Below, piece by piece: positions 7,455 to 20,128 of a stretch of DNA of 64,000 nucleotides; within the stretch, counting starts at the first letter, position 1; every line of letters starts with the position of its first letter. This stretch comes from Sphingomicrobium aestuariivivum (GTDB taxonomy: Bacteria > Pseudomonadota > Alphaproteobacteria > Sphingomonadales > Sphingomonadaceae). Where the stretch lies: positions 1,932,501 through 1,996,500 of the forward strand of contig NZ_CP102629.1 of assembly GCF_024721585.1 (NCBI RefSeq), written 5' to 3'. The position numbers were made by a program, and so were the translations under genes. Below the pieces are notes generated by a model. It saw only the letters and a program-made list of their open reading frames with translations. It made no database searches and had not been told where the DNA came from.

Positions 7455-8984
7455 TCAGGCCGCGTCGCCGTTCGCCTCGGCCTCCGAAATCCGCAGCATC
7501 GAAAGCGCCGCCAGCGCCATCACGCCGCCCGCAAACAGCATCGTCCAGATGGGTTGGGTCGGGAAGAAGGCTTTCAGAACACTGCCCATGAGGGTGGCGA
7601 CAATGAGCTGCGGCACGACGATGAAGACGTTGAACAGCCCCATGTAGATGCCGAGCTTTGCCTGCGGCAGCGCGCTGGCGAGGATGGCGTAGGGCATGGC
7701 GAGGATCGAGGCCCAGGCGATGCCGACACCGATCTCGGAGAGATAGAGCATCTCGGCATCCGGCAGGACGAGGAAGGACAGATAGCCCGCCGCACCGCAC
7801 AGGAGGCCGACCATGTGGGTCTTCACCTTGCCGAGGCGCTTCGACAGGAAGGGCAACAGGAGCAGCGCCGCGACCGCTGCCACGCCATTGTAGACCGCGA
7901 ACAGTTCGCCGACGAAATTGCCCGCGTCCTGGAAGGCGGCCGAGCTGCTGTCGGTGGTGCCGTAATAGCGCTGGGCGACCACGGGGGTGGTGTAGATCCA
8001 CATGATGAAGAGCGCCGACCACGAGAAGAATTGTGCCAAAGCGAGTTTCTTCATGAGGCTCGGCATGCCGGAGAAGTCGCCGACGATCTGGCTCAGCATT
8101 CCGGGGCGGTCGCCCTTCCTGGCCATGCCGATGGCGAGCATCGAGGCGAGCCCGTAGCCCGCTAGCAACGCGGCGAGGAGATAGACTTCCTTTTCGAGCC
8201 CGAAGCCCGCGGTGACCAGCGCGACCAGCGCGCCCGCGCCGACCCAGCCGAGCGCGCTGCCCTGCTTGCGTTCGGCGAGCAGGCGGATGGTCGCCGCATC
8301 GTCCGCGGCCTCGTCATGACCATCGAAGGCGGCCATCTCGTCGGGGCTATATTCCTTGGTCGTCAGCACGGTCCACATGACCGCCACGAACAGCGCCGCG
8401 CCGCCGAACCAGAAGCTGTATTTCACCGTGTCGGGGATGCCGCCGTCGGCGGCGACATTGGACACGCCCATGGCGTCCATCATCGAGGGGAAGAGCGAGC
8501 CGACCACCGCGCCCGCGCCGATGAAGGCGGTCTGCACGGCATAGCCCGCGGTATGCTGGTCCTTCCGGAGCATGTCGCCGACGAAGGCGCGGAACGGCTC
8601 CATCGAGATGTTGAGGCTGGCATCCAGCACCCAGAGCAGCACGGCGGCCATCAACAGGACGGGCGCCAGCGGCATGAGGAAGAGCGACAGTGCGGCAAGG
8701 AAGGCGCCTGCGACGAAATAGGGACGGCGGCGTCCGAAGCGGCCGAGCCAGGTGCGGTCGGACATGTAGCCGATGACCGGCTGGACGAGGAGGCCGGTGA
8801 GCGGGGCGGCGACCCACAAAGCGGGCAAATCGTCGAGCGAGCTGCCCAGCGTCTGGAAGATGCGGCTCATGTTCGCATTCTGCAGCGCGAAGCCGATCTG
8901 GATGCCGAAGAAGCCGAAGCTGATATTGGCCAGCCCGAGCCAGTTTTGGCGCGGTTTCTGCGCCATCGTCGCATGTTCGTTCAT
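7455..8984 (-). CDS. MFS sugar transporter (maltose/sucrose type, GPH/SLC45-like)
   Basis: A 509-residue, 12-helix major facilitator. The loop-2 motif MSDRTWLGRFGRRRPY, the FFGIQIGFALQNANMSRIFQTLG opening and the central loop fit the SLC45/MalY-like group that carries maltose or sucrose with protons across the inner membrane. ATG 8984 is preceded by a strong GGGGAGGA six bases away; an in-frame extension upstream lacks hydrophobic character. A palindrome like those in front of the receptor lies about 70 bases upstream (9051-9064), so I infer control by the neighbouring LacI-type protein. It matches the role of MalY in the Caulobacter malA-malY-malI set. Confidence 0.82.
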   Translation of the reverse strand: MNEHATMAQKPRQNWLGLANISFGFFGIQIGFALQNANMSRIFQTLGSSLDDLPALWVAAPLTGLLVQPVIGYMSDRTWLGRFGRRRPYFVAGAFLAALSLFLMPLAPVLLMAAVLLWVLDASLNISMEPFRAFVGDMLRKDQHTAGYAVQTAFIGAGAVVGSLFPSMMDAMGVSNVAADGGIPDTVKYSFWFGGAALFVAVMWTVLTTKEYSPDEMAAFDGHDEAADDAATIRLLAERKQGSALGWVGAGALVALVTAGFGLEKEVYLLAALLAGYGLASMLAIGMARKGDRPGMLSQIVGDFSGMPSLMKKLALAQFFSWSALFIMWIYTTPVVAQRYYGTTDSSSAAFQDAGNFVGELFAVYNGVAAVAALLLLPFLSKRLGKVKTHMVGLLCGAAGYLSFLVLPDAEMLYLSEIGVGIAWASILAMPYAILASALPQAKLGIYMGLFNVFIVVPQLIVATLMGSVLKAFFPTQPIWTMLFAGGVMALAALSMLRISEAEANGDAA

Positions 8985-9050
8985 TGATAATCCTCCCCAG
9001 GATCGGGGGAGACTGGCAGGATGGCCGTGGCGTGACAATCGCCGCCGCGC

Positions 9051-9086: not shown

Positions 9087-10100
9087 CTAGCTCGAGCCGC
9101 GGACCTTGAGGTCGACGGGGAGGAGGACGCTGTCGGGCGCCTCGTTGGCGATCTTCTTGAGGAGGGTCGCGATCAGCGTCTCGCCCGCTCGGCGCACATT
9201 TTGCGACACGCTGGTGAGCGGCGGCGAGGTGAGGGCGGCGCCGGGGCTGTCGTCGAAGCCGACCAGCGAGACGTCCTCGGGGATCGACTTGCCGGCCGCC
9301 TTGAGCGCGTTCATCGCGCCGATGGCAATGGGGTCGGCGGCAGCGAAGATGGCGTCGAATTCGACGCCGCTGCGCAACAAATTGGTCGCTGCCTGCTCGC
9401 CCGCCTCGACGGTGGCATTGGCATCATGGCTGGCGACGATCTCGTGGCCCGCCTCGCCAAGCGCGCGGGCAAGGCCGAGATAGCGCTCGAGGAATTCGGG
9501 CGCACTCTCGTCCGACTGTCCGAGAAAGGCGACCTTCTTTCTCGCGCGCGCGAGGAGGTGCCGGCCGACGAGATAGCCGCCCTGGTCGTTGTCCGAGCCC
9601 ACGGTGGTGCCGATCTGCCCCGCCTTGGCGGCTCCCCAGCGGACAAAGTGCGTGCCCTGGCTGACGAGCTGCTCGAGCCGCGGGCGCGCCTTCAGATAAT
9701 CGCCATAGCCGAGGAGCAGGATGCCGTCGGCCTTGTGGCTGTCCTCATAATCGACGTGCCAGTCCTCCGACAGCTGCTGGAAGCTGATGAGGAGGTCATA
9801 GCCCTTGTCCGAGGCGGCGCGCGCGAGGCTGCCCAGCATCGAGAGGTAGAAAGGGTTGATGAGGCTGTTGTCGGGCGTCGGGTCCTCGAAGAAGAGGAGC
9901 GCGAGCGTGTTGGACGAGCGCTTGCGCAGCCCGCTCGCATTCTTGTCGACCGTATAGTTGAGCTGCGTGGCGGCGGCGATGACCTTCTGGCGGGTCTCCT
10001 CCGAAACCGCGGGGCTGCCCGACAGGGCGCGGCTGACGGTTGGCTGGGACACCCCCGCCAGCGCTGCGATATCGAAACTTGTGGGACGCTTGGACCCCAT
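9087..10100 (-). CDS. LacI-family transcriptional regulator of the malto-oligosaccharide locus
   Basis: A 337-residue repressor. The N-terminal helix-turn-helix (SFDIAALAGVSQPTVSRALSG, about residues 8-28) and hinge (NYTVDKNASGLRKRSSNTLALL) are followed by a periplasmic-binding-protein-like sugar domain (GYGDYLKARPRLEQLV, DNDQGGYLVGRHLL, VSLVGFDDSPGAALTSPPLTSV). It is divergent from the TonB receptor gene and next to the sugar transporter, as MalI is in Caulobacter. I start at ATG 10100, which gives the usual short lead before the helix-turn-helix and has GGTGAG upstream; ATG 10124 would add eight residues. Likely inducer: maltose or a related glucoside (inference). Confidence 0.88.
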   Translation of the reverse strand: MGSKRPTSFDIAALAGVSQPTVSRALSGSPAVSEETRQKVIAAATQLNYTVDKNASGLRKRSSNTLALLFFEDPTPDNSLINPFYLSMLGSLARAASDKGYDLLISFQQLSEDWHVDYEDSHKADGILLLGYGDYLKARPRLEQLVSQGTHFVRWGAAKAGQIGTTVGSDNDQGGYLVGRHLLARARKKVAFLGQSDESAPEFLERYLGLARALGEAGHEIVASHDANATVEAGEQAATNLLRSGVEFDAIFAAADPIAIGAMNALKAAGKSIPEDVSLVGFDDSPGAALTSPPLTSVSQNVRRAGETLIATLLKKIANEAPDSVLLPVDLKVRGSS

Positions 10101-10166
10101 TAACTCACCGTTGCAATTCGGCATCAGCCTGACGGAGAACGACCCTAGGGACGGTTGAAGCCAATG

Positions 10167-10192
10167 TGAATACGTATGTGCATACGTATGTA
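10167..10192. promoter_or_regulatory. Tandem LacI-type operators in the divergent promoter region
   Basis: Two copies of the self-complementary ATACGTAT lie at 10170-10177 and 10182-10189, with centres 12 bases apart. The wider second copy, TGCATACGTATGTA (10179-10192), resembles the site before the transporter gene. The pair lies 67 bases before the regulator start and about 100 bases before the receptor start, so one repressor could hold both genes. Confidence 0.6.
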
Positions 10193-10293: not shown

Positions 10294-13071
10294 ATGAAGA
10301 AGACCACGATGTTCCGTGGTGCGGTCACCGTCAGCGCGCTGGCGATGGGCACCATGCTTGCACAGCCTGCCTTCGCGCAGGACGTTTCCACCGACGAGGA
10401 CGCCAATGCCGTCACCGGCCCGAGCGATGTTGCGCAGGCGGACGAAGAGACCGAGCTTGGCGAACAGATCGTCATCACCGGCATCCGCGCCAGCCTCGAG
10501 AATTCGGTCGCGGCCAAGAAGGCCAACACCTCGATCGTCGAAGTCGTGAGCGCCGAAGACATCGGCAAGCTGCCCGACGTCTCGATCGCCGAAACCCTGT
10601 CGCGCCTGCCGGGTCTTGCCACCCAGCGCCTCGACGGCCGCGCCAACGTCGTGTCGATCCGCGGCCTCGCGCCCGACTTCACCACCACGCTCCTCAACGG
10701 TCGCGAGCAGGTCAGCGCCAACAACAACCGCGGCGTCGAGCTCGACCAGTATCCGGCCGAACTCATCAACGGTGCGGTCGTCTACAAGACCCCCGACGCC
10801 AGCCTGATCGGTCAGGCGCTCGGCGGCACCATCGACATGCGCACCATCCGCCCGCTTAGCCATGGCAAGCAGACCTTCGTGATCGGCGGCCGCCTCGAGC
10901 TCAACGACCTCGGTGAAATCAACCCCGACATCTCGAACAAGGGCTATCGCGCCAATGCGTCGTATGTCGGCCAGTTCGCCGACGGCACCCTCGGCATCGC
11001 CATCGGCGGCTCGCTCATGAGCTCGCCGACCGCCGAAGAGCGCGTCCAGATCTGGGGCTATCCGACCAACGGTAACGGCAACTATGTCATCGGCGGCATC
11101 AAGCCCTACATCAAGTCGAACAAGCTTGATCGTGCGGGCCTCATGGGCGTCGTCGAATATGAGCCCAACGACCAGCTCCACGTCACGCTCGACGGTTACT
11201 GGTCGCAGTTCAAGGATAACCAGCGCCTGCGCGGCCTCGAAGTCCCGCTCGCCTGGTCGGGCGCGAGCCTTCGTGACGACTATGTCGTCGATCCCGAGAC
11301 CAACCTCATCACCGACGGCACCTTCGACGGCGTCGAGGTTGTCGGCCGCAACGACTTCGTCGATCGCGACAGCGAGATCTTCGCTGGCGGCATCAACTTC
11401 CAGTATGAAGTCAGCGACGGCCTGATGATCGAAGCCGACGCCGGCTACTCGACCCTCGACAAGACCGAGCGCAACGCCGAAATCTACTTCGGTACCGGCC
11501 GCGGCAGCGGTGTGGGCGCGGTCGACAGCTTCGCTTTCAGCTTCGACGAAGACTATATCCCGCAGTTCACCACCGGCCTCGACTATGCCGACACTAGCGA
11601 GGTCTTCCTGACCGCGCCGCTCAGCTGGTGTGGCCGCCCGGGCTTCCCCGGCGACTGCCAGGACGGCTTCATCAATGCGCCTGAAGTCGAAGATGACCTG
11701 ATGAGCCTGCGTCTCCAGGCCACCAAGGCCGTCGGCGCCAACGACAGCTTCCGCCTCGGTGCCAATTTCAGCGAGCGCACCAAGAAGCTCGTCGATCAGG
11801 GCTTCGTCCTGACCAACAAGGCCTATCCGGACGACGTCGCAGTGCCGACCGACCTGCTGTTCGAGCCGGTGTCGCTCGGCTTCATCGGCATCGACAGCCT
11901 GCTCGCCTTCGACAGTGTCGCTTATTACGAAGCAGGCAATTACGAGGAAATTTCGGGTAGTCTTTGGGATCCGAGCCGTCTGACCAACAGCTACGAGATC
12001 AACGAGAAAGTGCTGACCGGTTTCGCCCAGTACAATTTCGACTGGGAAATGGGCACCGTCCCGACCGTGGGGAACATCGGCGTCCAGATCGTCCACACCG
12101 ACCAGGAAGGCCGCGGTCTTGCAGCGCGCAACGCTGATGGCGTGGTGGTCACCGCCCCGGTGACCGATGGCGATACCTACACCGAGATCCTGCCCAGCCT
12201 GAACATCAGCTTCGAAGCCGAGGAAGGTACCTTCCTGCGCTTCGGTCTGGCCCGCATCCTGGCCCGTGCCCGCATGGACCAGCTCAACCCGGGTATCGGT
12301 TTCAACTACAACCCGGCCTTTGCCGACAACACCGACATCCAGCTCTCGCCGTGGAGCGGGACCGTCGGCAACTCGGCGCTGCGTCCGCTCATCGCGAACA
12401 CTGTCGACGTCGCCGTCGAGCGCTACTTCGCGCCGCGCGGCTACGTCTCGCTGTCGGGCTTCTACAAGAACCTCGAGACCTACATCTATCGCAGCAACGA
12501 GCTCTACGACTTTACCGGCTTCCCCTACACGGGCGACGAACCGGCGACGTTCGACGGCATCGTGTCGCAGTGGGTCAACGACGGTTCGGGTGATGTCTAC
12601 GGTATCGAATTCTCGGGCGCGCTTCCCTTCGAAGTGATCACCCGCGATCTCGACGGCTTCGGCCTCATCCTGTCGGGCAGCTACACCGACAGCGAAGTCA
12701 AGCAGGCCGACGGCGCCCGCCCGACCGACCTGCCGGGCCTGTCGAAGTGGGTCATCAACTCGACCGCTTACTACGAGAAGGACGGCTTCCAGGCGCGTAT
12801 CTCGGGCCGTTACCGTTCGGAATTCCTCGCCGAAGTCGCGGGCCTCAGCCTCGCGCGTGACCTCGATTTCGCGAAGGGCGAATTCCTCGTCGATGCGCAG
12901 GTCGGCTACGAGTTCCAGGACGGCTCGAGCCTCGAGGGGCTCTCGCTCCTCCTGTCGGCCTCGAACCTCACCAACGAGCCGTTCGTGACCTACCGCAACG
13001 AGGAGTATCTGATCCGCGACTACAACAATTACGGTCGCACCTTCTCGATCGGCGCGAACTACCGCTTCTAG
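10294..13071 (+). CDS. TonB-dependent receptor, malto-oligosaccharide uptake (MalA-like)
   Basis: A 925-residue outer-membrane receptor. Signal peptide (residues 1-28, ending PAFA), a TonB-box-like EQIVITG near 57-63, a plug domain (SIVEVVSAEDIGKLPDVSIAETLSRLPG, RGLAPDFTTTLLNGRE) and a long 22-strand barrel ending in FSIGANYRF, with the usual terminal aromatic. It belongs to the class of sphingomonad/Caulobacter receptors with IRASLENS after the TonB box. A strong GGGGAGGA lies upstream of ATG 10294. Its place beside a LacI regulator, sugar transporter and GH13 enzymes points to maltodextrin import across the outer membrane. An intercistronic stem-loop separates it from the halogenase gene. 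Confidence 0.9.
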   Translation: MKKTTMFRGAVTVSALAMGTMLAQPAFAQDVSTDEDANAVTGPSDVAQADEETELGEQIVITGIRASLENSVAAKKANTSIVEVVSAEDIGKLPDVSIAETLSRLPGLATQRLDGRANVVSIRGLAPDFTTTLLNGREQVSANNNRGVELDQYPAELINGAVVYKTPDASLIGQALGGTIDMRTIRPLSHGKQTFVIGGRLELNDLGEINPDISNKGYRANASYVGQFADGTLGIAIGGSLMSSPTAEERVQIWGYPTNGNGNYVIGGIKPYIKSNKLDRAGLMGVVEYEPNDQLHVTLDGYWSQFKDNQRLRGLEVPLAWSGASLRDDYVVDPETNLITDGTFDGVEVVGRNDFVDRDSEIFAGGINFQYEVSDGLMIEADAGYSTLDKTERNAEIYFGTGRGSGVGAVDSFAFSFDEDYIPQFTTGLDYADTSEVFLTAPLSWCGRPGFPGDCQDGFINAPEVEDDLMSLRLQATKAVGANDSFRLGANFSERTKKLVDQGFVLTNKAYPDDVAVPTDLLFEPVSLGFIGIDSLLAFDSVAYYEAGNYEEISGSLWDPSRLTNSYEINEKVLTGFAQYNFDWEMGTVPTVGNIGVQIVHTDQEGRGLAARNADGVVVTAPVTDGDTYTEILPSLNISFEAEEGTFLRFGLARILARARMDQLNPGIGFNYNPAFADNTDIQLSPWSGTVGNSALRPLIANTVDVAVERYFAPRGYVSLSGFYKNLETYIYRSNELYDFTGFPYTGDEPATFDGIVSQWVNDGSGDVYGIEFSGALPFEVITRDLDGFGLILSGSYTDSEVKQADGARPTDLPGLSKWVINSTAYYEKDGFQARISGRYRSEFLAEVAGLSLARDLDFAKGEFLVDAQVGYEFQDGSSLEGLSLLLSASNLTNEPFVTYRNEEYLIRDYNNYGRTFSIGANYRF

Positions 13072-13088
13072 TTCGCATCGCCAGGATC

Positions 13089-13136
13089 GCCCGTCCCGTC
13101 CACCGCACCCTCCCCGGTGCGGCGGGCGGGGCGGGC
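13089..13136 (+). promoter_or_regulatory. Intercistronic stem-loop after the receptor gene
   Basis: CCGCACC (13103-13109) pairs with GGTGCGG (13116-13122); outer GC-rich arms (13089-13098 with 13127-13136) extend the stem. No T tract follows, so it more likely marks mRNA processing or partial read-through between the strongly expressed receptor gene and the enzymes downstream than full termination (inference). Confidence 0.5.
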
Positions 13137-13156
13137 AACCCTCGCGGAGAACGCAT

Positions 13157-14680
13157 ATGACGAAGCCCAATCGTATCCAGCGACTGACCATCCTCGGCGG
13201 CGGAACTGCCGGATGGATGGCAGCGATCGCCTTTGCCCGCGTGCTCGGGCACCAGGTCAAGGTGACGCTCGTCGAATCGGAAGCGATCGGCACGGTCGGG
13301 GTCGGTGAAGCGACCATTCCCCCGATCAAGATCTTCAACCAGCTGGCCGGCCTCGAGGAGGATGAATTCCTCCGCCAGACCAAGGCGAGCCTCAAGCTGG
13401 GCATCGAATTTTCCGGATGGGGCGGCGCGGACGACCGCTACATCCACCTCTTCGGCAATGTCGGGCAGAGCCTCGGCCTTTCCGAATTCTTCCAATATTG
13501 GCTGCGCGCCCGCGAAGAGGGCATCGCCAAGGACTTCGACCTTTATTCGCTGACCGGTGCCGCGGCGCGGGCCGGCAAGGCCGAGCGCGCCACCGGCATC
13601 CGCGGCTCCAAGCTCGAAGGCATCACCTATGCCTTCCATTTCGACGCCGGGCTCTACGCCCGCTATCTGCGCAGCGAAGCGGAGAAGCTCGGCGTCGACC
13701 GGATCGAGGGCAAGGTGGCAGGTGTCGAGCGCGATGCCGAAACCGGCTTCGTCACGGCCTTGAAGCTCGAGGACGGGCAACAGGTCGGCGGCGAATTCTT
13801 CATCGACTGCTCGGGCTTTCGTGCCCTCCTCATCGGCGAGGAAATGGGCAGTGCCTACAGCGACTGGACGCATTGGCTGCCGTGCAACCGCGCGGTCGCG
13901 GTGCCGTGCGAGAATGGCGCGAAATTGCGCCCCTTTACCCAGTCGATCGCGCACAAGGCGGGCTGGCAGTGGCGCATCCCGCTCCAGCATCGCACCGGCA
14001 ACGGCCATGTCTTTTCTTCCGCGCACATGTCGGAGGACGAGGCGACGCAGATCCTCCTCGACAATCTCGAGGGCGAACCGATCGGCGATCCGCGCGTCAT
14101 TCGCTTCACCACCGGCATGCGGCCCGAGATGTGGAAGGGCAATGTCGCCGCGCTGGGGCTGGCCTCGGGCTTCCTCGAACCGCTGGAATCGACCTCGATC
14201 CACCTCATCCAGGTCGGCATTTCCAAGCTGATGAGCCTGTGGCCCGACACCGCCTGCGACCCCGCGCTCGCCGCCGAATATAATCGCAAGATGGCGTTCG
14301 AATATGAAAGCGTCCGCGACTTCATCATCGCCCATTATCATGTGAACCAGCGGCCCGAGCCCTTCTGGCGGCAGGTCGCGACGATGGACGTGCCCGACAG
14401 CCTCCAGCGCAAGCTCGACGTCTTCAAGTCGAGCGGGAAGATCTACCGCGACCATGACGAGCTCTTCACCGAGATCGGCTGGTTCCAGGTGCTGATGGGG
14501 CAGAATTTCACGCCCGAGCGCTATCACCCGCTCGCCGACCGGCTGAGCCGCGACCAGCTCGCGGGCTTCCTCGGCAACATCGAACAGATCGTGGGCAAGG
14601 CCGCCGACCAGCTGCCCTCCCATGAAGACTTTCTCGCCTCGATCGGGGCGCCCCCCACCTTGAAGGAGACGGCCGCATGA
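13157..14680 (+). CDS. Flavin-dependent (tryptophan-type) halogenase family protein
   Basis: A 507-residue FAD enzyme of the tryptophan-7-halogenase family. GGGTAGW (residues 14-20) binds FAD; GVGEATIPPI follows; the family's WxWxIP signature is present as WQWRIP (from Trp270); Lys80 in ASLKLGIEF aligns with the catalytic lysine (Lys79 of PrnA), and the Glu of EPLEST (about 344) with Glu346. The known halogenation residues therefore seem intact. Such enzymes use FADH2, oxygen and halide. The substrate is unknown; genes of this group often sit beside TonB receptors and sugar regulators. GGAGAA precedes ATG 13157. Its stop overlaps the next start (ATGA), so it is translated with the amylase. 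Confidence 0.88.
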   Translation: MTKPNRIQRLTILGGGTAGWMAAIAFARVLGHQVKVTLVESEAIGTVGVGEATIPPIKIFNQLAGLEEDEFLRQTKASLKLGIEFSGWGGADDRYIHLFGNVGQSLGLSEFFQYWLRAREEGIAKDFDLYSLTGAAARAGKAERATGIRGSKLEGITYAFHFDAGLYARYLRSEAEKLGVDRIEGKVAGVERDAETGFVTALKLEDGQQVGGEFFIDCSGFRALLIGEEMGSAYSDWTHWLPCNRAVAVPCENGAKLRPFTQSIAHKAGWQWRIPLQHRTGNGHVFSSAHMSEDEATQILLDNLEGEPIGDPRVIRFTTGMRPEMWKGNVAALGLASGFLEPLESTSIHLIQVGISKLMSLWPDTACDPALAAEYNRKMAFEYESVRDFIIAHYHVNQRPEPFWRQVATMDVPDSLQRKLDVFKSSGKIYRDHDELFTEIGWFQVLMGQNFTPERYHPLADRLSRDQLAGFLGNIEQIVGKAADQLPSHEDFLASIGAPPTLKETAA

Positions 14681-16503
14681 TGATGACGAGCCTGATTGCC
14701 GCGCTTGCGAGCGCTGCCCAGATCCAGGAAACGCCCACCGCCGAAGCCCCGCTGTTCGGCAGCGCCGAGACCTATCGCGGGCGTCCGCCGCAAGACGAGA
14801 TCGTCTATTTCGTGCTGCCCGACCGCTTCGAGAATGGCGATACGTCGAACGACCGCGGCGGCCTCACGGGCGACCGGCTCGAGACCGGCTATGACCCGAC
14901 CGCCAAGGGCTTCTTCCACGGCGGCGACCTCAAGGGGCTGACCGAGCGCCTGTCCTATCTCGAGGGCCTCGGCGTCACCGCCATCTGGTTCGCCCCCATC
15001 TTCCAGAACAAGGCGGTGCAGGGCCCGCGGGGCGAGGAGAGCGCTGGCTATCACGGCTATTGGGTGACCGACTTCACCCGCCCCGATGCGCATTTCGGTT
15101 CGATGGACGAGTTCAAGGCCTTCGTCGACGCCGCCCACGGGCGCGGCATGAAGGTCTATATGGACATCATCACCAACCACACCGCCGACGTCATCGGCTA
15201 CGAGCAGGGCGACGAGTTTGCCTATCATTATCGCCCGCTCGCCGATTATCCCTATTCGACGCGCGGCGGGATCGACGGCGAGCGGATCAACGAGGGTTTC
15301 CTTGGCGACCATATCCGCACCGAGGAAAATTTCGCCAAGCTCACCAACCCGAACTTTGCCTATGACGTGGTGGTCCCCGAGGCCGAGAAGGACGTCAAAG
15401 TCCCGGCCTGGCTCAACGACCCGATTTACTATCACAATCGCGGCAACTCCTCGTTCCGAAACGAGGACAGCCTCTATGGCGATTTCTCCGGCCTCGATGA
15501 CCTGTTCACCGAGCATCCGCGCGTCGTTGCCGGCATGACCGACATCTTCGCCGACTGGATCACGGGTGTCGGGATCGACGGCTTCCGCATCGACACCGCG
15601 CGCCACGTGAACCCCGAGTTCTGGCAGCAGTTCATCCCGGCGATGGAAGCCACCTCGGAGGCCGAGGGCATCCCGCACTTCCACATGTTCGGCGAAGTCT
15701 ATCGCGACGACAGCGACAATGGCTACATCGCCCAATACACCCGCCGCGACAAACTGCCCGCCGTGCTCGACTTCGCCTTCCAGCAGGCGGTGCGCGAGAC
15801 GGTGGCGATGGACAAGGGCACCGAGGTGCTCGCCTACATGTTCGCGGGCGACGTACTCTACGAAGGCGGCGAGGCGACCGCGATGACACTGCCGACCTTC
15901 CTCGGTAATCATGACATGGGCCGCTTCTCGCAATTCGTGCGCGAGGCCAATCCGGACGCGGACGACGCCGAGATGTTGGCGCGCGTGAAGCTCGGGCATT
16001 CGATGCTGCTCACCCTGCGCGGTTCGCCCGTCATCTATTCGGGCGACGAGCAGGGCTTCGTCTCCGACGGCGGCGACCAGCTGGCGCGCGAGGACATGTT
16101 CGCGAGCATCACGGACGTCTATAACGACAACGATCTCATCGGCACCGACGCCACCACCGCCGACGAGAATTTCGATGTCGCCCATCCGCTCTACCGCTGG
16201 ATCGGCCTCCTCTCGAACATCCGCAAGGAAACGCCCGCGCTGCGCCGCGGACGGCAGGTGACGCGCGCCTATGGCGCCGAGACCGGCCTGTTCGCCGTCT
16301 CGCGCTTCGATCCCGAAACGGATCGCGAATATCTCCTTATGTTCAACACCAGCGAGGAAGCGATTTCGGGGCAGGTGCTGGTCGAGGTGCCCAACGAGGA
16401 ATGGACCACCATCCTCGGCAAGTGCGCCGCCAAGGTGAGCGCACCCGGCAGCCTGTCCTATGAACTCCCCGCCCTCGGCTTTTCGATCTGCGAGGCACGA
16501 TGA
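14677..16503 (+). CDS. GH13 alpha-amylase-family enzyme, exported
   Basis: A 608-residue glycoside hydrolase of family 13. A short signal peptide (MMMTSLIAALASAAQ) sends it to the periplasm. Blocks of the (beta/alpha)8 barrel are clear: DIITNHTADV, nucleophile Asp306 in GFRIDTARHV, acid Glu340 in MFGEVYRD and Asp413 in LGNHDMG. The FHGGDLKGLTERLSYLEGLGVTAIWFAP stretch and loop DQ(L)AREDMFAS fit neopullulanase/cyclomaltodextrinase-like or CGTase-like members. It would cut imported maltodextrins or cyclodextrins. GGAG eight bases upstream supports ATG 14677, which overlaps the halogenase stop by four bases; the stop overlaps the following GH13 gene likewise. Confidence 0.88.
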   Translation: MMMTSLIAALASAAQIQETPTAEAPLFGSAETYRGRPPQDEIVYFVLPDRFENGDTSNDRGGLTGDRLETGYDPTAKGFFHGGDLKGLTERLSYLEGLGVTAIWFAPIFQNKAVQGPRGEESAGYHGYWVTDFTRPDAHFGSMDEFKAFVDAAHGRGMKVYMDIITNHTADVIGYEQGDEFAYHYRPLADYPYSTRGGIDGERINEGFLGDHIRTEENFAKLTNPNFAYDVVVPEAEKDVKVPAWLNDPIYYHNRGNSSFRNEDSLYGDFSGLDDLFTEHPRVVAGMTDIFADWITGVGIDGFRIDTARHVNPEFWQQFIPAMEATSEAEGIPHFHMFGEVYRDDSDNGYIAQYTRRDKLPAVLDFAFQQAVRETVAMDKGTEVLAYMFAGDVLYEGGEATAMTLPTFLGNHDMGRFSQFVREANPDADDAEMLARVKLGHSMLLTLRGSPVIYSGDEQGFVSDGGDQLAREDMFASITDVYNDNDLIGTDATTADENFDVAHPLYRWIGLLSNIRKETPALRRGRQVTRAYGAETGLFAVSRFDPETDREYLLMFNTSEEAISGQVLVEVPNEEWTTILGKCAAKVSAPGSLSYELPALGFSICEAR

Positions 16504-18104
16504 GCAACGCGCGTACCGCCTGTAACGACCTGCCCTGGTGGCAGGGTGCGGTGATCTACCAAGTCTATCCGCGCAGCTTCCGCGATAGCAACGGTGACGG
16601 CATCGGCGATATCGCCGGCATCACCGAGAAGATGGAGCATATCGCGGACCTCGGCTGCGATGGCCTGTGGGTCAGCCCCTTCTTCACCTCGCCGATGGCC
16701 GATTTCGGCTATGACGTCGCCGACTATCGCGGGGTCGATCCGATCTTCGGCACGATCGAGGATTTCGACGCGATGGTCGCGCGGGCGCACGCGCTCGGGC
16801 TCAAGGTCATCATCGACCAGGTCTACAGCCACACCAGCATCGAACATGCATGGTTCGAGGAAAGCCGCCAGAGCCGCGATAACCCGAAGGCCGACTGGTA
16901 TGTCTGGGCCGATCCCAAGCCCGACGGCTCGCCGCCCAACAACTGGCAGTCGGTGTTCGGCGGGGCGAGCTGGACGTGGGATGCGCGCCGCGGCCAATAT
17001 TACCTGCACAATTTCCTGAAGGACCAGCCCGACCTCAACGTCCATAACGCGCAAGTGCAGGACGCGCTGCTCGAGGTCGCGCGCTTCTGGCTCGACCGCG
17101 GGGTCGACGGCTTCCGCCTCGATGCGCTCAATTTCGCGATGCACGATCGCGCGCTGACCGACAATCCGCCGGTCGAGAGCCCGAAGCAGAAGACGCGCAG
17201 CTTCGATTTCCAGCATCATTTCCACAACCAGTCGCAGCCCGAGATCCTCGGTTTCATCGAGCGCATCGCGGGGGTGATGAAGGACTATGGCGCGCGCTTC
17301 ACGCTGGCCGAGGTCGGCGGCGAACAGGCCGCGCGCGAGATGAAGGAATTCACGCACGGCGATCACCGCCTCAACAGCGCTTACGGCTTCGACTATCTCT
17401 ATGCCGATGCGCTGACCCCCGATATCGTTCGCACGGCGATCAGGAGCTGGTCGGGCGAGGAAGGCGAGGGCTGGCCGAGCTGGGCCTTTTCCAACCATGA
17501 CGCGCCGCGATTCGCCTCGCGCTGGTGGGACGAGGCGGATCGCCCGCAGGCCGTGCGCACCGCGCTCACGCTGCTCATGTGCCTCAAGGGCAATGCGATC
17601 CTCTACCAGGGCGAGGAACTCGGCCTGCCGCAGGCCGAGGTGCCCTTCGAGCATCTGCAGGACCCCGAGGCGATCGCCAATTGGCCGCTCACCCTTGGCC
17701 GCGACGGCGCGCGCACGCCGATGGTCTGGAACGACAGCGACTGCGCGGGCTTCGGCTCGACGCAGAGCTGGCTGCCGATCGCCGCGCCGCATCGCGCACA
17801 TCACGTCGCTGCGCAGGAGGCCAACGAGGGCTCGATCCTCAACTGGACAAAGAAGGTGATTTCGCTTCGCAACGCGAACGACGCGCTGCGTTGCGGCGAG
17901 ATCGAGATTGTCGACGAGGGCGGTGACCTGCTCGCCTTCGAACGGTCGAAAGATCACCAGCGCATCCGCTGCTATTTCAACCTTACCGCCGAAGTCGTGG
18001 CGCTGCCCGACGTGGCCGGAACGGTGCTCCTCGCAACCGGCGAGGTCGCCGCAGACCAGAACGAACTACCCCCTTATTCCGCCCTGATCGTGGAGACCCA
18101 ATGA
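16500..18104 (+). CDS. GH13 alpha-glucosidase
   Basis: A 534-residue family 13 enzyme of the alpha-glucosidase/oligo-1,6-glucosidase type. It opens with WWQGAVIYQVYPRSFRDSNGDGIGDI, characteristic of exo-acting alpha-glucosidases. Catalytic residues: Asp208 (GFRLDALN), Glu271 (LAEVGG) and Asp334 (SNHDAPR). No signal peptide is seen, so it is probably cytosolic and releases glucose from maltose and short maltodextrins after the MFS carrier has brought them in. ATG 16500 overlaps the upstream stop (ATGA), and the gene is coupled the same way to GH97 downstream. Confidence 0.9.
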   Translation: MSNARTACNDLPWWQGAVIYQVYPRSFRDSNGDGIGDIAGITEKMEHIADLGCDGLWVSPFFTSPMADFGYDVADYRGVDPIFGTIEDFDAMVARAHALGLKVIIDQVYSHTSIEHAWFEESRQSRDNPKADWYVWADPKPDGSPPNNWQSVFGGASWTWDARRGQYYLHNFLKDQPDLNVHNAQVQDALLEVARFWLDRGVDGFRLDALNFAMHDRALTDNPPVESPKQKTRSFDFQHHFHNQSQPEILGFIERIAGVMKDYGARFTLAEVGGEQAAREMKEFTHGDHRLNSAYGFDYLYADALTPDIVRTAIRSWSGEEGEGWPSWAFSNHDAPRFASRWWDEADRPQAVRTALTLLMCLKGNAILYQGEELGLPQAEVPFEHLQDPEAIANWPLTLGRDGARTPMVWNDSDCAGFGSTQSWLPIAAPHRAHHVAAQEANEGSILNWTKKVISLRNANDALRCGEIEIVDEGGDLLAFERSKDHQRIRCYFNLTAEVVALPDVAGTVLLATGEVAADQNELPPYSALIVETQ

Positions 18105-20128
18105 TCCAACGCCTCGCCCTCGGGCTCACCGCCGCGCTGTTCGCGCTTCCCGCTGCCGCCACCGCCGAAGAGGTCGTGACCTCGCCCGACGGCCGCATCA
18201 GCGTCACGGTGGACGTGAACGGGGAGGGGCGCCCCTTCTACCGCGTCGACCTCGACGGCGAGACCATCGTCAATGACAGCCGCCTCGGCTTCCTCATGGC
18301 CGACCAGGACAAGCTCGAGCGGCGGCTTGCGCTCATCGACGCCGAGACTGGCAGTGCCGACGAGACTTGGGAGCAGCCGTGGGGCGAGAAGCGCTATATC
18401 CGCGACCATCACAACGAGTTGTCGGTCACCTTCCGCGAGGACAGCGAGGCAGCGCGCGAGTTCGGCGTGACTTTCCGCGTCTTCGATAACGGCGTCGGCT
18501 TCCGCTACGACTTCGAGCACGCCTCGCTGGGCGAGACGATCCGCATCGCGGATGAACTCACCGAGTTCAATTTCGCCGAGGACGGCACCGCCTGGTGGAT
18601 CCCCGCGGGCGAGTGGAACCGCTACGAATATCTCTACGAGGAAACGCCGATCTCGGGCGTCTCGATGGTGCATACCCCCTTCACCGTGAAGCTCGAGGGC
18701 GGCACCCATGTCGCCGTGCACGAGGCCGCGTTGGTCGACTTTGCCGGCATGTGGGTCAAGCGCACCACCGGCACCAATTTCCGCGCCACGCTGGCACCGA
18801 CCGGTTCGACCGCCGCGCGTGTCGTGCGCGAGAACGGCTTTTCCACGCCGTGGCGCACGCTGACCATTGCCGATGATGCGGCGGGCCTCGCCAATGCCGA
18901 CATCACCTTGAACCTCAACGAGCCCAACAAGCTTGGCGACATGAGCTGGTTCACCCCGCACAAATATGTCGGCGTCTGGTGGTCGCTCCATCTCGACGAG
19001 GAAAGCTGGGGCTCGGGGCCCAAGCACGGTGCCACCACCGAGAATGTGAAGCGCTACATCGACTTTGCCGCCGAACATGGTTTCGAGGGGGTGCTGGTCG
19101 AGGGCTGGAACATTGGCTGGGACGGCAACTGGTTCTTCAACGGGGCCGAGTTCAGCTTCACCGAGGCCTATCCCGATTACGATTTCGAGGAACTGGCCCG
19201 CTATGCCGCCGAAAAGGGCGTGCCGATCGTCGGCCATCACGAAACCTCGGGCGATGTCGGCAATTACGAGAGCCAGCTCGAAGCCGGCCTCGACCTCATG
19301 AAGGCCCGCGGCGTCTCGGCGATCAAGTCGGGCTATGTCACCGACGCCTGCAACCTGCGCTACGTCCATCCCGACGGGCGCGAGAGCCGCGAATGCACCG
19401 AGAGCCAGGTGATGCAGCGTCACCACCTGAAGGTCGTGATCGAGGCGGCCAAGCGCCAGATCGTCATGAACCCGCACGAGCCGGTGAAGGACACCGGCCT
19501 TCGCCGCACCTATCCCAACTGGGTCACCCGCGAGGGCGCGCGCGGGATGGAGTTCAACGCCTGGGGCGTGCCGGGCAACGGGCCGGCGCATGTGCCGACC
19601 ATGGTCTTCACCCGCCTCCTGTCCTCGCCGATGGATTATACGCCGGGCATCGTCAGCCTTGAGGGACGCGGCCAGCCCTTGGAGATGACGCAGGCGCGCA
19701 ACCTTGCCGAATATGTGCTGGTCTATTCGCCGCTCCAGATGGCGGCCGACCTGCCGGAACATTATGCCGACAATCCCGAGGCCTTCGGCTTCATCAAACA
19801 GGTGCCCGCCGACTGGTCGGACAGCCGCGTGCTGATGGGCGAGGTGGGCGACTATGCCGTCACCGCGCGCAAGGACCGGGGCAGCGAGGACTGGTATGTC
19901 GGCGGCGGCACCGACGAGAAGGCGCGCAATGTCCGCGTCGCGCTCGACTTCCTCGAGGAAGGGCGCGTCTATCGCGCGCATATCTGGCGCGATACGGCGA
20001 CCAGCCACTATGAGGGCGAGGCGCGGTTCGAGATGGAAACCGAGACCCGGACGGTCCGTGCCGGCGACACGATCGACCTCATGATGGCTCCCGGCGGGGG
20101 CTTTGCGATCCGCCTCGAAGCACAGTAA
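18101..20128 (+). CDS. GH97 alpha-glucosidase (SusB-like), exported
   Basis: A 675-residue family 97 glycoside hydrolase. Signal peptide MIQRLALGLTAALFALPAAATA (about 22 residues) places it in the periplasm. The N-terminal beta-sandwich carries RVFDNGVGFRYDF; the central barrel carries GVWWSLHLDEESWGSG, GVLVEGWNIGWDG and VGHHETSGDVGNYE (about residue 380), the last a likely catalytic-Glu region as in calcium-dependent inverting members such as SusB; a C-terminal sandwich follows. It removes glucose from maltodextrin ends. The start overlaps the GH13 stop (ATGA). It ends the glycosidase block; a large inverted repeat and then zwf follow. Confidence 0.88.
   Translation: MIQRLALGLTAALFALPAAATAEEVVTSPDGRISVTVDVNGEGRPFYRVDLDGETIVNDSRLGFLMADQDKLERRLALIDAETGSADETWEQPWGEKRYIRDHHNELSVTFREDSEAAREFGVTFRVFDNGVGFRYDFEHASLGETIRIADELTEFNFAEDGTAWWIPAGEWNRYEYLYEETPISGVSMVHTPFTVKLEGGTHVAVHEAALVDFAGMWVKRTTGTNFRATLAPTGSTAARVVRENGFSTPWRTLTIADDAAGLANADITLNLNEPNKLGDMSWFTPHKYVGVWWSLHLDEESWGSGPKHGATTENVKRYIDFAAEHGFEGVLVEGWNIGWDGNWFFNGAEFSFTEAYPDYDFEELARYAAEKGVPIVGHHETSGDVGNYESQLEAGLDLMKARGVSAIKSGYVTDACNLRYVHPDGRESRECTESQVMQRHHLKVVIEAAKRQIVMNPHEPVKDTGLRRTYPNWVTREGARGMEFNAWGVPGNGPAHVPTMVFTRLLSSPMDYTPGIVSLEGRGQPLEMTQARNLAEYVLVYSPLQMAADLPEHYADNPEAFGFIKQVPADWSDSRVLMGEVGDYAVTARKDRGSEDWYVGGGTDEKARNVRVALDFLEEGRVYRAHIWRDTATSHYEGEARFEMETETRTVRAGDTIDLMMAPGGGFAIRLEAQ

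Follow-up and report, generated by a model that had tools for sequence, protein, structure and literature searches.

Why does a flavin-dependent halogenase gene sit among genes for sugar utilisation, and on what does its product act? The gene lies in a stretch of 64,000 nt of the Sphingomicrobium aestuariivivum genome (the window; NZ_CP102629.1, positions 1,932,501 to 1,996,500), and all coordinates below are those of the window unless another record is named. The original prediction placed an intact halogenase in a sugar-utilisation operon and had it act either on an aromatic signal or glycoside linked to a glucan diet, or in a different redox role. Its reading of the gene itself was right. 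The link to the glucan diet, however, is replaced by a link to TonB-dependent receptors: relatives of the gene stand beside varied glycan genes, and the halogenase varies with the receptor.

The operon is a maltodextrin-type (mal-type) locus. On the minus strand are a sugar-type MFS transporter (7455–9038) and a LacI-family regulator (9087–10124), both assigned by family profiles. On the plus strand follow a TonB-dependent receptor (10294–13071; TIGR01782 at 534.8 bits, curated cut-off 310), the halogenase (13157–14680), a GH13 alpha-amylase-family enzyme (14677–16503, Pfam profile), a GH13 alpha-glucosidase-like enzyme (16500–18104, family profiles) and a GH97 enzyme (18101–20128, Pfam profile). 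The receptor gene, absent from the original prediction, is directly upstream of the halogenase gene, 85 bases away. The overlap with an amylase gene noted there was confirmed: the last 4 bases of the halogenase gene (14677–14680) are shared with the start of the GH13 gene, and such 4-base overlaps run through to GH97. Downstream of GH97 are genes that by eye resemble an Entner-Doudoroff set (zwf, pgl, edd, glk, eda). The available text of PMC10086023 describes a glucoamylase of the GH97 type from Qipengyuania seohaensis. The same order of MFS, LacI, TonB receptor, halogenase, GH13, GH13 and GH97 genes was found on the Qipengyuania citrea plasmid NZ_CP098495.1, whose receptor-side halogenase is 50.4% identical to that of the window. 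The plasmid differs at both ends: it has an additional GH13 gene past the MFS gene, and its operon closes with a second halogenase and is followed by gyrB, where the window has zwf. Fourteen mal-type loci (L030, L034, L037, L040, L045, L047, L049, L050, L052–L056 and L063) carry a second halogenase that belongs to a separate clade and follows GH97 or an esterase; the window operon has no such gene.

The LacI and receptor genes are divergent, and in the gap between them lies a perfect 20-bp palindrome, ATACGTATGTGCATACGTAT (10170–10189), present as a single copy in the window. It likely serves the LacI regulator as operator. A degenerate pattern for LacI-type operators was also tried, and was set aside on giving one match, which is chance level.

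The halogenase frame has an ATG start and encodes 507 aa. Pfam PF04820 (Trp_halogenase) covers aa 10–463 with 601 bits (2e-180; cut-off 21). The FAD-binding motif GGGTAGW (aa 14–20, 13196–13216) and the motif WQWRIP (aa 270–275, 13964–13981) are in place, as are two residues catalytic by alignment, Lys80 in ASLKLGIEF (codon 13394–13396) and Glu344 in LEST (codon 14186–14188), all on the plus strand. We take this pair to be the catalytic Lys and Glu of PrnA and RebH, in agreement with our alignments. Membership in the PF04820 family thus comes with a full-length profile match and with GxGxxG, WxWxIP, Lys and Glu all present. As read from its sequence, the protein is a full-length FADH2-dependent halogenase with its catalytic residues intact, and very probably an active one. 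In an NCBIfam search with the window halogenase no model passed its cut-off; the weak matches include CmlS, QhpG and the maturase GoxB, the QhpG (peptidyl-Trp monooxygenase) profile reaching 31.2 bits under a cut-off of 240. No flavin reductase of the family searched, PF01613, is near the halogenase; the sole such place in the genome is 0.28 Mb distant. A phage origin was considered and rejected: among the 30 phage records listed, of 66 matching, 28 were merely 27.0–32.3% identical, and the remaining two were unverified faecal scaffolds without annotation.

Among solved sequences, the nearest was PDB 9LUQ ('Tryptophan halogenase'), with 534 bits over aa 7–494. Xcc4156 (PDB 6Y1W, 503 bits) and BrvH (PDB 6FRL, 440 bits) align with the window protein nearly end to end, have the same catalytic motifs and align without gaps in the C-terminal loop. 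The free-tryptophan halogenases PrnA, RebH, Thal and PyrH are in the same Pfam family, and Lys, Glu and WxWxIP of PrnA align as in the window protein. By contrast with Xcc4156 and BrvH, however, the named tryptophan 5-, 6- and 7-halogenases listed reach at most 279 bits, with PrnA, RebH, Thal and PyrH at 275 or below, and the best alignments to the PrnA, RebH and Thal entries 4z43, 2e4g and 6h43 stop at aa 426–429. The available text of PMC7336383 describes a substrate-closing loop (region 2) that is long in the RebH group and short in Xcc4156 and BrvH. The RebH-type long loop is absent from the window protein, a call made from ungapped alignment with BrvH and Xcc4156 only, and the protein appears in this respect to resemble the short-loop enzymes, not the RebH group. 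Region 1 of the same paper, which holds a long loop in the PyrH type, is in the window protein ungapped relative to BrvH and 6 residues longer than in Xcc4156. By eye, the window motifs ATIPPI and HLFGN fit the group C rows in the available part of PMC8269204, yet PrnA has ATIPSL and HLFGN; because PrnA carries nearly the same motifs, the Trp1/Trp2 motifs of group C cannot decide membership. Overall, bit scores put the window enzyme nearer the BrvH/Xcc4156-like non-tryptophan halogenases than the Trp halogenases. Within the BrvH-like group it is nothing unusual; what makes it interesting is its partnership with a receptor.

For this group the original prediction described the substrate as open, and the literature agrees: the available texts of PMC5945002 and PMC7336383 call the native substrates of BrvH and Xcc4156, respectively, unknown. 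In vitro, according to the same texts, the BrvH and Xcc enzymes use free indole and indole derivatives, not tryptophan. On indole BrvH shows low activity, and the authors of that work doubt that indole is its natural substrate (PMC5945002, available text), and Xcc4156 has an open active site, with peptides proposed as substrates (PMC7336383, available text).

Where, then, are such genes found? The window's own genome (2.35 Mb, one contig) has 2 PF04820 genes, 16 Plug-domain matches and 2 TIGR01782 receptors, and both of these receptors have a halogenase less than 400 bases away. In 12 related halogenase-bearing genomes, a halogenase was less than 1 kb from 22 of 30 TIGR01782 receptors, whereas random halogenase placement reached a mean of 0.19 receptors and a maximum of 2 in 2000 trials. 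(The 30 receptors come from 32 listed places, after the two halves of one G125 receptor were merged and a sub-cut-off G177 match was dropped.) Counted from the halogenase side, a TIGR01782 receptor was within 1 kb of 22 of 33 halogenases and within 12 kb of 31. The close pairs were co-directional with the receptor first in 12 cases, divergent in nine and convergent in one. Receptors also occur by themselves: eight of the 30 had no halogenase within 1 kb, and 17 of 24 halogenase-free genomes of the family contain at least one TIGR01782 receptor over cut-off.

The survey was extended to 101 halogenase regions, the window excluded: 40 closest matches, 21 other family members and 40 from other families (phylum regions). 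The closest regions and 20 of the other family members were hand-picked from the upper match lists, which favours the mal layout, and the phylum regions were likewise hand-picked; genes in all fetched regions were called with our own codon-usage script, not a standard gene finder. The receptor profile was positive in 88 of the 101 regions but in just 1 of the 20 controls, which had been taken at round coordinates rather than drawn randomly; four of the controls were not retrained (coverage 0.21–0.76), and receptors may be undercounted there. Among the 152 halogenases in these regions, 80 directly adjoin a receptor and 137 have one within six genes; the other 15 have none by this profile in their stretch. 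Six of the 13 profile-negative regions nonetheless hold a TonB-type receptor, recognised by Pfam in L061, L099, L101 and L134, by clustering with the L061 receptor in L073, and cut by the contig end in L023. In the remaining seven (L062, L066, L067 and L125–L128) no receptor was found by profile, Pfam or clustering.

Within the genus, 16 genomes were chosen, eight with and eight without a halogenase. Four have a mal-type receptor, two of these receptors being merely 38–41% identical to that of the window, and all four have a halogenase match 106–298 bases away plus a GH97 match. At that threshold the other 12 have neither the mal-type receptor nor GH97, and four of the 12 have a halogenase elsewhere. 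Across the order, 217 of 297 genomes searched had a halogenase match. A single-protein scan of genome contigs brought up one distant relative only, and the named loci that we describe are plasmids. We took six of them from 91 plasmid records with a match, and in all six an annotated TonB receptor gene precedes the match, either directly or with one gene in between. The glycan genes beside them are of six kinds: GH13/GH97, GH43, GH32/amylosucrase, a TIM-barrel enzyme, GH95 and a beta-glucosidase. On a Pseudoalteromonas plasmid, the match was in two pieces without an annotated gene, behind an annotated halogenase. The constant partner of the halogenase is the receptor, not the sugar, and the glucan context does not define the gene. 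Given the association observed, we consider it highly probable that the receptor encoded upstream is the functional partner of the halogenase.

Co-variation of the halogenase with its neighbours gave a similar picture. Distance matrices of halogenase and receptor in 79 adjacent pairs had a Spearman correlation of 0.649, the best of 999 permutations being 0.221. In 25 mal-type loci having all six genes, the halogenase went more closely with the receptor than with any of its four other partners (rho 0.456, partial 0.428). The halogenase correlated with the second GH13 type (GH13b) at 0.309 (partial 0.222), with LacI at 0.210 (partial -0.003), with the adjacent amylase (GH13a) at 0.096 and with GH97 at 0.075. 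The receptor's remaining correlations were 0.158–0.196. LacI, by comparison, reached 0.665 with GH13b, 0.497 with GH97 and 0.445 with GH13a, while GH97 reached 0.568 with GH13a and 0.388 with GH13b; GH13a and GH13b gave just 0.273. An earlier run on 26 loci with the GH13 types mixed looked the same. From these correlations the locus looks like two modules, receptor with halogenase and regulator with hydrolases. Co-variation here means shared history rather than contact, because joint transfer would yield the same signal. In the tree, halogenase clades largely follow neighbourhood type.

Loss of the catalytic residues in most homologues in the same context, named in the original prediction as a refutation, was not seen. 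Both Lys and Glu are kept in 144 of 153 aligned halogenases, so that halogenation chemistry looks possible, as originally predicted. One of the other nine is a fragment at a contig end. The remaining eight (L058:10597-11703, L059:10676-12043, L065:8888-10021, L067:10155-11621, L069:10541-12028, L070:6242-7714, L098:7786-9246 and L103:7861-9270) lack both residues and form one tree split with support 0.999, on a long branch where attraction is possible. They sit beside intact halogenases, in halogenase arrays, in three bacterial families by genome tables. Their open frames, taken from the longest possible start, are 368–577 aa, two being merely 368 and 377 aa. They appear old rather than freshly wrecked, because they are 16–45% identical to one another. 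This clade is possibly a conserved pseudo-halogenase partner. The different redox role originally offered as an alternative is not needed for the window copy; it may fit these eight.

An operon made up of genes for a TonB receptor, SapC, Cupin_8 and a halogenase recurs in other families, and some copies have an extra halogenase gene behind the receptor. We saw the four-gene arrangement in L109, L112, L114, L116–L119 and L121–L124. SapC was at most three genes from the halogenase in 14 of the 40 phylum regions, Cupin_8 in 12 and both together in 11; Pfam bore out the assignment for three SapC and two Cupin_8 genes. DUF6445 (PF20043) is near halogenases in 10 of the 101 regions (L043, L045, L052, L057, L058, L103, L112, L119, L122 and L136). 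In all ten DUF6445 sequences an H-x-D, a later H and a later R are kept, presumably the pattern of 2-oxoglutarate (2OG) oxygenases, and for this reason DUF6445 resembles an undescribed family of 2OG Fe(II) oxygenases associated with such loci. Counted together, the 2OG families Cupin_8, DUF6445 and 2OG-FeII_Oxy_5 were at most three genes from a halogenase in 23 of the 101 regions, only three of which are among the 40 closest; near the receptor they were found in none of 20 halogenase-free receptor regions, and in none of 20 controls. The window locus has none of the three. In Pelagibacter phage HTVC008M (NC_020484.1, 63778–64956) the match spans an annotated tryptophan halogenase and a 2OG-Fe(II) oxygenase, echoing the bacterial pairing. 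For such enzymes the available text of PMC11337851 guesses at a redox role in virus-receptor contact.

Between the receptor and halogenase genes of the window is a very stable RNA hairpin without a T-run (13089–13136, plus strand); the fold of the surrounding 96 nt (13065–13160) has -58.9 kcal/mol and z -5.4. Strong folds (z < -2) were found in 55 of 62 receptor-halogenase gaps versus 13 of 60 other gaps sampled, some of the folded gaps containing coding sequence where the halogenase start was called late. A halogenase-specific device was ruled out, however. Strong hairpins also follow receptor genes that precede other co-directional genes, 16 of 22 such receptor genes in halogenase regions and 8 of 12 in halogenase-free ones, and they occur at 26 of 45 convergent gene ends sampled in control regions. 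The hairpin is a feature of receptor genes in general. Mostly lacking a T-run, the hairpins after receptor genes are not ordinary intrinsic terminators, and that of the window might make the receptor mRNA outlive the rest of the transcript.

What the enzyme acts on is best approached through the receptor. Because relatives usually adjoin outer-membrane nutrient receptors, a link between target and receptor is more likely than one between target and the starch sugars that this operon serves; the target most probably belongs to the receptor system. Our leading explanation, tentative and held at a little under an even chance, is a working BrvH/Xcc4156-like halogenase that modifies something of its receptor, perhaps a receptor Trp or Tyr before export. 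A general flavin reductase would supply FADH2, the flavin hydroperoxide would oxidise halide to HOX, and Lys80 and Glu344 would steer HOX, within an open active site, to an electron-rich ring. The leading guess is that this ring belongs to a receptor Trp or Tyr and is altered while the receptor is still in the cytoplasm, ahead of export, and the hairpin after the receptor gene could permit much receptor and little enzyme. As to the parts of this explanation, a polypeptide target is plausible without being favoured, and the receptor itself as the target is somewhat unlikely. The 2OG oxygenase genes near halogenases count in favour of the explanation; their absence from the window locus, the many TIGR01782 receptors that stand alone and the weaker link of the halogenase to GH13b and LacI count against it. 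The strongest positive analogy for a protein target is QhpG, a peptidyl-tryptophan dihydroxylase and a flavoenzyme that, like the proposed window enzyme, acts on protein Trp, but as a monooxygenase and not a halogenase. According to the available text of PMC7876137, QhpG hydroxylates Trp of a protein later moved to the periplasm, and its channel is matched to the halogenase tunnel. QhpG may serve as a model for a way of working, not for the family membership of the window halogenase.

The nearest homologues would instead suggest a small-molecule halogenase, its product made from a free indole or phenol (a signal, a defence compound or a catabolite) wanted when the receptor is expressed. The nearly end-to-end alignment with BrvH and Xcc4156, which act on such indoles in vitro, speaks for it; the low activity and the doubts of the BrvH authors do not. 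Nor would a free metabolite alone explain why the halogenase co-varies with the receptor more than with the enzymes, or why halogenase clades track neighbourhood type, and we regard this as unlikely. Were the substrate a nutrient-linked aromatic such as a phenolic glycoside, imported by the receptor and then altered by the halogenase, as in the original prediction, the position of the gene among glycan genes, here and in the named relatives, would be accounted for. That the glycans of the six named loci are unrelated, and that co-variation with GH97 or the adjacent GH13 is scant in mal-type loci, makes this idea distinctly improbable.

Two further explanations do without a halogenated product that matters. 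The protein could serve the receptor as a sensor that binds flavin, as a chaperone or as a monooxygenase, with in vitro halogenation as a side reaction, and the persistence of the eight copies without Lys and Glu as open frames implies that the fold may serve without halogenation; a scaffold would need neither residue, though, and the retention of both in nearly all copies leaves such a role highly improbable. Alternatively, receptor and halogenase could travel as a cassette with no joint function. The patchy distribution in the order and the two-module structure of mal-type loci fit cassette exchange, but the two genes stay associated in different bacterial families and in divergent as well as co-directional layouts, and a mere passenger gene seems to us a very long shot.

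If the receptor is modified, a shared site might be visible in its sequence. We sought an aromatic residue common to 92 halogenase-linked receptors and missing from 21 unlinked ones in the receptor alignment, and found none. The largest contrast was at Tyr923 of the window receptor, present in 67% of linked and 5% of unlinked receptors. Trp445, in a stretch with two cysteines, is present in 64% of linked and 10% of unlinked receptors, and is absent from GH3-type and SapC-type receptors. The missing shared residue lowers the idea of the receptor as target without ending it, because the modified site could differ from one receptor class to the next. No halogenated receptor was found in the literature searched, a weak absence as this comprised open-licence papers only, and the same kind of papers gave none tying a tryptophan halogenase to a TonB receptor together with maltose, polysaccharide utilization, Caulobacter or cupin. 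In a Sphingomonas colony-morphology screen, according to the available text of PMC11340318, one insertion was in a tryptophan halogenase gene (RS06730), possibly an envelope phenotype for the halogenase family.

A broader form of the receptor-modification reading is that BrvH-type halogenases are protein modifiers dedicated to TonB-dependent receptors that form, with the 2OG oxygenases, an oxidative tailoring system; we think this unlikely. Receptor side chains would be halogenated or hydroxylated before export, with a conserved, catalytically dead sister halogenase taking part in some loci, and the change would tune ligand binding or hide the receptor from phages or bacteriocins.

Anyone looking for what BrvH and the Xanthomonas halogenases act on in the cell has, in the partner receptor, a named protein to start from, and those who engineer such enzymes have a first set of peptides to test. 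Halogenation of receptors, if it occurs, would to our knowledge be a protein modification of a kind new to nutrient uptake.
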